The position numbers were made by a program, and so were the translations under genes. A model generated the notes under the pieces. That model saw nothing but the letters and a program-made list of their open reading frames with translations. It ran no database searches and was not told the origin of the DNA. Below are positions 22,618 through 53,277 of a stretch of 64,000 nt of DNA, piece by piece. Positions within the stretch are counted from its first letter, which is position 1, and each line of letters begins with the position of its first letter. The stretch covers positions 1 to 64,000 of the forward strand of contig NZ_JAOZVW010000146.1 of assembly GCF_025869345.1 (NCBI RefSeq). Direction: 5' to 3'. Source of the DNA: Sphingopyxis sp. (lineage in GTDB: Bacteria > Pseudomonadota > Alphaproteobacteria > Sphingomonadales > Sphingomonadaceae).

Positions 22618-22950
22618 CGCGCAGAGAACGCAGAGTTCGCGGAGATCAGGTGAAAAGGATTCACGCGGAGACGCGGAGGCGCGGAGAGATTCTGCGGCTC
22701 CCTCCACTTTCGTCATTCCCGCGAAAGCGGGAACCCAGCGTAACGAAAGAACCAGCGCGGCAGCGCCGTATCCGAAAACCGCAATTCGGCCCCGACTTGC
22801 GCAGAAGGGACATGGGCTGGCGAAGCGCCAAAACCTTTGGCTGGGTTCCCGCTTTCGCGGGAATGACGAAAGTGGGAGATCGCCAAATCTTTCCGCGTCT
22901 CCGCGTCTCCGCGTGAACAAATCTCTGCGCACTCTGCGTTCTCTGCGCAA
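22618..22950. repeat. nested three-layer palindrome: 9-mer triplet arms, 8-mer triplet arms, REP pair
   Basis: CGCAGAGaaCGCAGAGttCGCGGAG (22620-22644) vs CTCTGCG x3 (22923-22947); TTC(ACGCGGAG)2GCGCGGAG (22660-22686) vs 22891-22917; cgtcattcccgcgaaagcgggaaccca vs its complement (22711-22736/22843-22868). Confidence 0.93.
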
Positions 22951-49917: not shown

Positions 49918-50658
49918 TTACGACAGCATCGCCATCCCACCGTTCACGTGCAGCGTCTGCCCGGTGACATACCCCGCCTCCTTCGACGCGAGATAGACGA
50001 CCGCAGCCGCGATATCGCTGCCCTCGCCCATCCGCCCCGCCGGGATGCGCTGGTTGAGCGCTTCCTTCTGCGCGTCGGGCAGGTCGTCGGTCATCGCGGT
50101 GGCGATGAAACCCGGCGCGACGCAGTTCGCGGTGACGCCGCGGCTCGCGAGTTCCTGCGCCAGCGCCTTGGTCATGCCGGTGACCCCCGCCTTCGATGCC
50201 GCATAATTGGCCTGTCCCGGATTGCCCGTCGCCCCGACGACGCTGGTGATCGAGATGATGCGCCCGAAGCGCGCCTTCATCATCGGCTTCGCCGCCGCGC
50301 GCGCGAGGCGGAAATTGGCTTCGAGGTTGATGCGGATCACGTCCGACCATTCCTCGTCCTTCATCCGCATGATCAGATTGTCGCGCGTGACCCCGGCATT
50401 GTTGACGAGAATATCGAGCTGCCCCAGCGCCTCGACCGCCGACGGCACGAGCGCATCGACCGCCGCCGCGTCACCAAGGTCGCACGGCAAGGCGACATGA
50501 TCGCCGCCAAGGCTATCGCGAAAGGCGTTCAGCTTGTCGGCGTTGGACCCCGACACCGCCAGCAGCGCGCCCTGCGCCACGAGCGCCTGCGCAATGGCAG
50601 ACCCGATGCCGCCCGAAGCGCCGGTAACGAGGGCAGTCATGCCGGTGAGATCGAACAT
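49918..50658 (-). CDS. fabG: 3-oxoacyl-ACP reductase
   Basis: MTALVTGASGGIGSAIAQALVAQGA..SVVGATGNPGQANYAASKAGVTGMTKALAQE. Confidence 0.95.
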   Translation of the reverse strand: MFDLTGMTALVTGASGGIGSAIAQALVAQGALLAVSGSNADKLNAFRDSLGGDHVALPCDLGDAAAVDALVPSAVEALGQLDILVNNAGVTRDNLIMRMKDEEWSDVIRINLEANFRLARAAAKPMMKARFGRIISITSVVGATGNPGQANYAASKAGVTGMTKALAQELASRGVTANCVAPGFIATAMTDDLPDAQKEALNQRIPAGRMGEGSDIAAAVVYLASKEAGYVTGQTLHVNGGMAMLS

Positions 50659-50673
50659 TAAAGTCTCCATATT

Positions 50674-51093
50674 TTACCGGTTCACGCGGAGACGCGGAGA
50701 CGCGGAGGGTTTATGATCGTTGACGATGCGACGGACACCCTCTTTGAGGGTCGCACCGCCGAAATTTATGACAAGTCCTACCGATTGACGAGTCAAACGC
50801 AGATAGGTCAACAATTGTTTGCCGTGCGCCGCATTAAGCCGTTCGACGGATTTGATTTCGACAAGAAGCCGGTCATCGACCAATAAATCGATCCGAAAGG
50901 CGGCATCGAAGCGCATGTCTTCAAAGAATATGTCGATCGGCTTTTGCCGATCGACCTTATAACCTGCAGCCGCCAGCTTGCCGGCCAGCACGGTTTCATA
51001 GACGCTTTCCAAAAGGCCGGGACCAAGGTCCCGATGGATGCGAAGCGACAAATCCAGCACATCGCCGCTCACGACATCAATGTCTTGCGCCAT
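50674..51093 (-). CDS. GxxExxY protein (PD-(D/E)XK nuclease-like)
   Basis: GLLESVYETVL (GxxExxY) and FRIDLLVDDRLLVEIKSVE (D..ExK); ORF lies inside an inverted-repeat-bounded element. Confidence 0.9.
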   Translation of the reverse strand: MAQDIDVVSGDVLDLSLRIHRDLGPGLLESVYETVLAGKLAAAGYKVDRQKPIDIFFEDMRFDAAFRIDLLVDDRLLVEIKSVERLNAAHGKQLLTYLRLTRQSVGLVINFGGATLKEGVRRIVNDHKPSASPRLRVNR

Positions 51094-51122
51094 ATCTCCG
51101 CGCCTCCGCGTCTCCGCGTGAA
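50681..51122. mobile_element. putative 442-bp GxxExxY element with terminal inverted repeats of 8-mer triplets
   Basis: TIR-L TTC(ACGCGGAG)3 at 50681-50707; TIR-R CTCCGCGC(CTCCGCGT)2GAA at 51096-51122. Confidence 0.75.
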
Positions 51123-51124
51123 CC

Positions 51125-52063
51125 TCAAAAGACCTTCAGCAGCGCCTCGATATCGTCCATCGAAATCACGCTGACCGTCTCGACCTCGCCCGATGCGCTG
51201 CGTTTGACCATCGGCGACAGCACCTTGCCGCCGAATTCGACGAACTGGCCGACGCCGATCTCCTCCATCGCGCCGACGCTCTCGCGCCAGCGGACGCGGC
51301 CGGTGACCTGCTGGACGAGCAGGTCGCGGATCGTGTCGGCGTCGCTGACCGGGCTCGCGGTGACGTTCGCGACCACCGGCACCAGCGGCGCAGCGGGCGG
51401 GTTCGCGCCGAGCGCCTCGGCCATCGCGTCGGCGGCGGGCTGCATCAAGGGGCAATGGAAAGGCGCCGACACCGGCAGCAGCACGCCGCGCTTGATTCCG
51501 AAATCCTTGACCAGCGCGACCGCGCGCTCGATCGCGCCCTTGTGGCCGGAGATCACGACCTGCGACGGGTCGTTGTCGTTGGCGACGGTGCAGACCTCGC
51601 CCTCGGCCGCGGCGTCGGCGAGCTTTTGCGCGGTGTCGATGTCGGCGCCGAGCAGCGCCGCCATCGCGCCGACGCCGACCGGCACCGCCGCCTGCATCGC
51701 CTGCCCGCGCGTCTTGAGCAGCCGCGCGGCGGTCGCAAGGTCGAAGGCGCCCGCGGCGCAGAGCGCGCTATATTCGCCGAGGCTGTGGCCCGCGACATAG
51801 GCGGCCTTGGCGGCGAGCGTCACGCCCCCCTCCTTCTCCAGCACGCGCAGCGTAGCGACCGCATTCGCCATGATCGCGGGCTGGGCATTTTCGGTGAGGG
51901 TCAGTTGATCCTCGGGCCCTTCGCTCATCAGCTTGAAGAGATTCTGGCCGAGCGCCTCGTCGACCTCCTGAAACACCTCGCGCGCCACGGGCGACGCATC
52001 GGCGAGCGCCTTGCCCATGCCGACCGCCTGGCTGCCCTGACCCGGAAAGATGAATGCGCGCAT
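51125..52063 (-). CDS. fabD: malonyl-CoA-ACP transacylase
   Basis: MRAFIFPGQGSQAVGMGKAL..AGHSLGEYSALCAAGAF. Confidence 0.97.
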   Translation of the reverse strand: MRAFIFPGQGSQAVGMGKALADASPVAREVFQEVDEALGQNLFKLMSEGPEDQLTLTENAQPAIMANAVATLRVLEKEGGVTLAAKAAYVAGHSLGEYSALCAAGAFDLATAARLLKTRGQAMQAAVPVGVGAMAALLGADIDTAQKLADAAAEGEVCTVANDNDPSQVVISGHKGAIERAVALVKDFGIKRGVLLPVSAPFHCPLMQPAADAMAEALGANPPAAPLVPVVANVTASPVSDADTIRDLLVQQVTGRVRWRESVGAMEEIGVGQFVEFGGKVLSPMVKRSASGEVETVSVISMDDIEALLKVF

Positions 52064-52995: not shown

Positions 52996-53277
52996 CGTCA
53001 TGCTGAACTTGTTTCGGCATCCATGGCCGGCCTTTTCGGGAAACGCAGTGCTTTTTTTGTTTCGCACAAAGCCACAAAGCCACGAAGAGGACGGCTTGGG
53101 CCGATCAGGCCCTTTTCTTATCAACGGTGCGGCGGGCCACACACGGTCGGAAAGGAAAGCCGCTTCGCGGTATGTGCGACTTCTTCGTGGCTTTGTGGCT
53201 TTGTGCGAAAATATAACTAGCCCCGCCCTATCAACCCGACACCTGGCCATGGATGCTGAAACAAGTTCAGCATGACG
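52996..53277. repeat. composite nested palindrome: REP-like outer arms and 8-mer triplet inner arms
   Basis: Outer cgtcatgctgaacttgtttcggcatccatgg / ccatggatgctgaaacaagttcagcatgacg; inner TTC GCACAAAG CCACAAAG CCACGAAG (53061-53087) / CTTCGTGG CTTTGTGG CTTTGTGC GAA (53183-53209). Confidence 0.93.

Follow-up and report, generated by a model that had tools for sequence, protein, structure and literature searches.

A GxxExxY gene of the PD-(D/E)XK nuclease type inside inverted CRCRRAG arms, and its association with gene-less elements carrying cognate arms

The armed gene between fabD and fabG

The DNA analysed here, a stretch of 64,000 nucleotides from Sphingopyxis sp. (hereafter the window), contains a small gene that lies between fabD and fabG and is enclosed by a pair of inverted repeat arms:

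49918–50658, minus strand: fabG, the downstream neighbour
50674–51093, minus strand: GxxExxY / PDDEXK_3 gene, 139 aa, start codon ATG at 51093, stop codon TAA at 50674–50676
50679–50707, plus strand: 3′ arm, the inverted copy, GGTTCACGCGGAGACGCGGAGACGCGGAG on the plus strand, encoding the protein C-terminus
51096–51124, minus strand: 5′ arm, GGTTCACGCGGAGACGCGGAGGCGCGGAG on the coding strand, three CRCRRAG units, probable ribosome-binding site
51125–52063, minus strand: fabD (ACP S-malonyltransferase), the upstream neighbour, stop codon at 51125–51127

The 139-aa open reading frame scores 120 bits against TIGR04256 (cut-off 35) and 121 bits against PF13366 (cut-off 22), both far above the cut-offs, confirming the assignment made in the earlier note to the PDDEXK_3-related GxxExxY proteins, a widespread family of unknown function. 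The reading frame is intact, the host genome is Sphingopyxis-like, and the gene runs, as that note also stated, in the direction of the fab operon, with fabD, the gene, and fabG all on the minus strand. The family motif is G26-xx-E29-xx-Y32, and the conserved core comprises H20, D69, E79-x-K81, and Q93-xxx-Y97; in an alignment of 60 relatives, H20, D69, E79, K81, and Q93 are invariant and Y97 is nearly so. The H-D-ExK-QxxxY layout is that of RecB/Cas4/lambda-exonuclease enzymes. An AlphaFold model (pLDDT 91.4) shows a PD-(D/E)XK fold, and the top Foldseek match in the PDB is Cas4 SSO0001 (4ic1; E 3.5e-3, TM about 0.46), followed by lambda exonuclease; we regard the structural match to Cas4 as moderate. 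Cas4 models match 12 of the 60 GxxExxY relatives, and a sequence search for a solved-structure relative of the window protein returned none. PADLOC models gave no match to the window protein; among the relatives, the PADLOC RT-associated PDDEXK model matches 17 of 60, a hint of a link to reverse-transcriptase systems. The 139-aa sequence contains no cysteine and therefore lacks an iron-sulphur cluster of the kind found in Cas4. As part of the overall interpretation developed below, the gene product is predicted to act as a small, stand-alone nuclease with a PD-(D/E)XK core, akin to Cas4, RecB, and lambda exonuclease.

The arms are 29 nt each, are 97% complementary, and carry three CGCGGAG octamers apiece. 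The arm score at the locus is 53, compared with a median of 18 and a 99th percentile of 30 in 348 same-geometry, position-shifted control windows, and the triple-octamer pattern CRCRRAGNCRCRRAGNCRCRRAG has 61 plus-strand and 69 minus-strand matches in the source genome versus 0/4 for the reversed pattern; the arms are therefore not a product of chance, and the unit described in the earlier note is real. The location and make-up given there hold, except that the arms are slightly longer; the 5′ arm adjoins the fabD stop codon directly. The 3′ arm DNA encodes the C-terminus (...SASPRLRVNR), with the stop codon just beyond the arm, as had been seen. The sole Shine-Dalgarno-like sequence of the coding strand there is the inward-facing end of the 5′ arm, GGAGGCGCGGAGAT-ATG. 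In most of about 50 congeneric genes, a stretch of purines about 4–12 nt before the likely start codon sits at the inner arm end or immediately inside it. Judging from these sequences, the 5′ arm probably supplies the ribosome-binding site, in agreement with the earlier proposal.

The fabD-fabG gap is readable in 57 congeners, of which 35 have an empty gap, 15 a GxxExxY gene, 3 a gene-less element, and 4 another ORF. Empty gaps are mostly 22–29 nt, and the contrast between empty and filled gaps lies between species. Empty sites thus exist, as anticipated, but precise excision was not found at the compared sites. The gaps of G007, G014, G027, and G036 (loci L056, L058, L078, and L061) hold a different small ORF with an apparent signal peptide, and at L058 a vestige similar to the L072 right arm is left.

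The order fabD-GxxExxY-fabG is common to Sphingopyxis, Sphingomonas, Novosphingobium, and another genus, and the fabD-fabG GxxExxY genes of these genera form one clade on the protein tree. These sequences are therefore best and most simply explained by a single old insertion that was inherited vertically and lost repeatedly. The earlier note had read the gene as a self-packaged hitchhiker that inserts into operons. A recent arrival in the fab operon would be in keeping with the empty gaps of 35 of the 57 congeners and with the arms as sharp ends of a unit; the synteny across genera and the single clade mark the copy as old and rule out recent insertion at this site, and we give this reading hardly any credence. 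During descent the arm spelling at fabD-fabG changed (CGCGGAG, CGCAGAG, CGCGAAG, CGCAAAG), and the left and right arms stayed matched (score 50.6 for matched versus 34.7 for mismatched arms; permutation p ≤ 1e-4). Such co-variation of two arms at a fixed site therefore points to selection on pairing or recognition, or to gene conversion between the arms.

Arm families with and without the gene

Loci were sampled from Pseudomonadota and from one genome per species across GTDB, the latter including Verrucomicrobia, Chloroflexi, Bacteroidota, Planctomycetes, Acidobacteria, Cyanobacteria, desulfo-lineages, KSB1, WOR-3, and SAR324. Arms score above the control 99th percentile at 87 of 111 GxxExxY loci from many phyla (median score 41 versus 18) and at all 48 full-length GxxExxY genes of 60 congeneric genomes, which makes arms near-universal companions of GxxExxY genes across phyla, a point that the earlier note had proposed to test. 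In low-scoring loci L105, L109, L159, L165, and L180, decayed arms are visible by eye. The reading frame is broken over the matched part in 9 of 81 GxxExxY loci. GxxExxY was found on only 8 of 72,556 plasmid records, including an 880-kb replicon on which fabD-fabG also lies. Arms are clearly visible around a Bacteroides plasmid copy. There was no match among phages, and there were two among viral contigs.

Three CRCRRAG units are present in 130 of 176 arms, and the unit spacing among arms is 8, 9, 10, or 11 nt. Left and right spacing strings are identical at 53 of 88 loci, versus 21 expected by permutation, and arm spacing undergoes 8 changes on the protein tree, versus 33 in shuffles. A GFLEKVYE subclade has GAT-type units with mostly 10-nt spacing. 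In spelling and spacing, the arms match the lineage of their protein.

As anonymous intergenic DNA, CRCRRAG repeats are common. In the source genome, most triple-octamer matches pair in inverted orientation, about 120–150 bp apart with no gene between them, and the inverted octamer pairs for which the earlier note had suggested a search are present in large number. In a sample of 42 short gene-less elements from this genome, the median length is 138 bp and [TC]TC[AG] lies just outside the first unit on both sides; direct repeats at the 42 element ends, as would mark target-site duplication, are not above shuffles (p = 0.86). Many interiors contain two hairpins (CCGCGAAGCGG, GGGCCTGTCGGCCC), others contain a different palindromic repeat pair, and some contain neither. 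The interiors bear no resemblance to the GxxExxY gene, and Rfam identified no RNA family at the gene-less element loci tested. Two gene-less elements lie in the window:

22660–22917: CGCGGAG-armed element, arms at 22664–22686 and 22891–22913, interior formed by another palindromic repeat pair (CATTCCCGCGAAAGCGGGAA)
53061–53209: CACAAAG-armed element, arms at 53065–53087 and 53183–53205, interior with two short hairpins

The CACAAAG-armed element lies within a larger palindrome, GTCATGCTGAAC...GTTCAGCATGAC, of which it occupies the loop; its site in congeners holds other repeats or nothing. One gene-less CGCGGAG element is absent from two relatives, where the junction is inexact and a base-exact empty site was not obtained. 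The window also contains a tandem glycine riboswitch (Rfam RF00504; 21653–21857, minus strand).

The source genome has three arm families, CGCGGAG, CACAAAG/CACGAAG, and CGCAAAG/CGCGAAG, with a cognate gene for the first two; its second GxxExxY gene has a premature stop and its own 31-nt perfect inverted arms of CACAAAG spelling. Between paired arms, no gene other than GxxExxY was recognised here. Under an RNA-level role, the arms would form stems in transcripts, for protection, termination, or insulation, and would have been acquired by a gene that is otherwise an ordinary member of the operon. Such a role would suit the co-orientation of the gene in the fab operon, the probable origin of its ribosome-binding site in the arm, and the co-variation of paired arms, as of stems, but it would not lead one to expect gene-less elements with cognate arms at other sites in the genome, or unit spacing that is mirrored and specific to the protein, and we consider it very unlikely.

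Nested and interleaved arms are frequent. Comparison of one orthologous gene-less element (C95:11111 in the source genome) with its counterpart in G041 reveals an interior inverted between the arms, with 86 of 93 identities in the inverted alignment versus 55 of 99 in the direct alignment and flanks of about 95% identity. An inverted interior and nested or interleaved arms are what breakage and recombination at the arms would be expected to leave behind. Other arrangements were also seen: L195, L196, L198, L200, and L201 are inside-out pairs, whose arms point outwards with about 20 bp between them; several of these pairs lie within loops of other palindromic repeats; and in L065, L070, and L007 two arm spellings are interleaved (A B a b) rather than nested.

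Gene presence predicts cognate gene-less elements

Across 60 genomes of the genus, 30 with and 30 without GxxExxY, the median number of arm arrays per genome is 25.5 in the former and 0 in the latter (Mann-Whitney p = 5.6e-9), and any array is present in 28 of 30 versus 10 of 30. With the genes' own arms subtracted, phylogenetic GLS, using a tree of one gene (fabD) and unit patterns from one genus, relates gene presence to arm number at p = 8e-9; allowing for genome size or contig number leaves the result as it is, and restriction to the 38 better assemblies yields p = 6e-7. The relationship extends to spelling. Specifically, for CGCGGAG gene-less arms the GLS coefficient is 2.48 for a CGCGGAG-armed gene versus 0.79 for other GxxExxY genes, and for CACRAAG gene-less arms it is 1.83 for the cognate gene versus 0.91 for the others, the CACRAAG test being weak (p = 0.08) when confined to GxxExxY-bearing genomes. 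Independent-pair tests, which have few supported contrasts and low power, gave almost none in the opposite direction at an eight-arm threshold. Gene presence thus predicts cognate gene-less elements.

The two arm-less genomes with the gene are G003, where the gene has a premature stop, and G015, where CGCCAAG arms were missed by the pattern. Conversely, some genomes are rich in arms and have no detected GxxExxY gene (G281 with 21, G052 with 22, and G215 with 111), possibly reflecting relics, missing contigs, or another partner enzyme. In the phylum sample outside family f28, GxxExxY and arms are associated with an odds ratio of 52 (p = 1e-6), and Y1 transposases are not associated with arms (odds ratio 0.6, p = 0.5). 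Within f28, the 8-nt pattern shows no association with GxxExxY; many f28 genes have 9–10-nt spacing. The source genome (G000) has 0 matches to the Y1/RAYT gene family (PF01797). RAYT was accordingly rejected as the mobiliser of the arms in this genome, and outside f28 it is not associated with arms.

One alternative is that another host or element enzyme moves the arms and GxxExxY genes are one cargo among several. The variable interiors (a pair of hairpins, palindromic repeats of other kinds, or nothing conserved) and the genomes with arms and no detected GxxExxY speak for it; against it stand GxxExxY as the only gene recognised between paired arms, the power of GxxExxY presence to predict both the number and the spelling of gene-less arms, and the Y1 results, and we judge it improbable.

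The chief rival is protection of genomes from structures formed by the arms: arms would spread by other means, the nuclease would process their hairpins or cruciforms, and arm-rich genomes would keep the gene. The correlation of gene and arms has no direction, so that the arms might depend on the nuclease without owing their spread to it; moreover, the Cas4/RecB/lambda-exonuclease-type fold counts among its members enzymes that act on DNA ends and single strands, and the fabD-fabG copy is long-resident. This alternative nevertheless leaves unexplained the location of the gene within arms of its own family, the agreement of arm spelling and spacing with the protein lineage, and the greater power of a gene to predict arms of its own spelling than arms of other spellings, and we regard it as rather unlikely.

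A proposed partnership and its relation to known systems

The account we favour, and hold to be the probable one, is a REPIN/RAYT-like partnership in which an unrelated Cas4/RecB-type nuclease acts in trans on its own arm family. The system would have two parts, the nuclease and inverted arms of usually three tandem CRCRRAG units, with the arms enclosing many short gene-less elements as well as the gene for the nuclease. The nuclease would recognise arms of its own spelling and spacing and cut within or beside them, perhaps when they are single-stranded or extruded as hairpins. With another armed element as the template for repair or copying, gene-less elements would then spread, and by the same process arm repeats would be homogenised and interiors exchanged. 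The fabD-fabG copy would be a source gene that has long resided at its site, in the manner of a domesticated RAYT and its REPINs, and would be translated from the ribosome-binding site of its own arm.

From the associations above, we infer that armed elements are mobilised, and that recognition and cutting of arms by the nuclease underlie their spread, homogenisation, and rearrangement. Mobilisation through the arms, as suggested in the earlier note, draws only indirect support, from the trans association with gene-less armed elements; neither target-site duplication nor precise excision was found, and no transposition event was seen in the genomes compared. Conceivably, though we put this below an even chance, a single Cas4/RecB-like nuclease encoded inside the arms is the only dedicated enzyme propagating miniature armed elements that span phyla, constituting a class of mobile elements unrelated to DDE, HUH, serine, or tyrosine transposases, in which arms specify identity and interiors are interchangeable.

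The link between GxxExxY and the repeats gives the family a testable function and names a likely cause for a large class of CRCRRAG repeats; the data suggest that the enzyme acts on a large, overlooked mobile repeat family in many bacterial phyla. If this is true, a Cas4/RecB-type nuclease joins the enzymes able to maintain or spread mobile repeat DNA. The open-access literature, to which our search was confined, yielded no study of GxxExxY biology, of these repeats, or of their association.

The closest parallel is REPIN/RAYT, which likewise combines short inverted-pair non-autonomous elements with a usually single-copy, vertically inherited chromosomal gene. As found here for GxxExxY, the enzyme gene is flanked in cis by the same repeats, and gene-bearing genomes are richer in non-autonomous copies: RAYT-bearing genomes hold more repeats (PMC8049555), and for GxxExxY the medians are those given above. 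However, the GxxExxY enzyme is a PD-(D/E)XK nuclease whereas RAYT is a Y1/HUH protein; REP palindromes are GTAG- or CGTC-tagged (PMC3733652) whereas GxxExxY arms are untagged CRCRRAG arrays with TC[AG]C ends; and gene-bearing and gene-less GxxExxY units have whole arms in common. Because the enzyme and the repeats are unrelated, the GxxExxY system is not a member of REPIN/RAYT.

Insertion sequences with MITEs resemble the system in having terminal inverted repeats common to gene-bearing and gene-less copies. Unlike them, the GxxExxY unit has PDDEXK_3 as its only gene and no known transposase, has repeat arrays as arms with no target-site duplication detected, and is nearly absent from plasmids and phages. 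Rpn / YhgA-like proteins (PF04754) have been linked to DNA mobilisation, in the form of RecA-independent transfer (PMC5350276). They, too, are PD-(D/E)XK proteins, but of a different Pfam family. We know of no association of these proteins with repeat arms.

Cas4, lambda exonuclease, and RecB have in common with the window protein the PD-(D/E)XK core (H, D, ExK, QxxxY) and provide its best structure and HMM matches. Unlike Cas4, the window protein is a stand-alone 139-aa protein encoded inside repeat arms, with no cas1/cas2 or CRISPR array adjacent. Cas4 works in CRISPR spacer acquisition, and a stand-alone relative tied to arms therefore bears on the origin of such enzymes.
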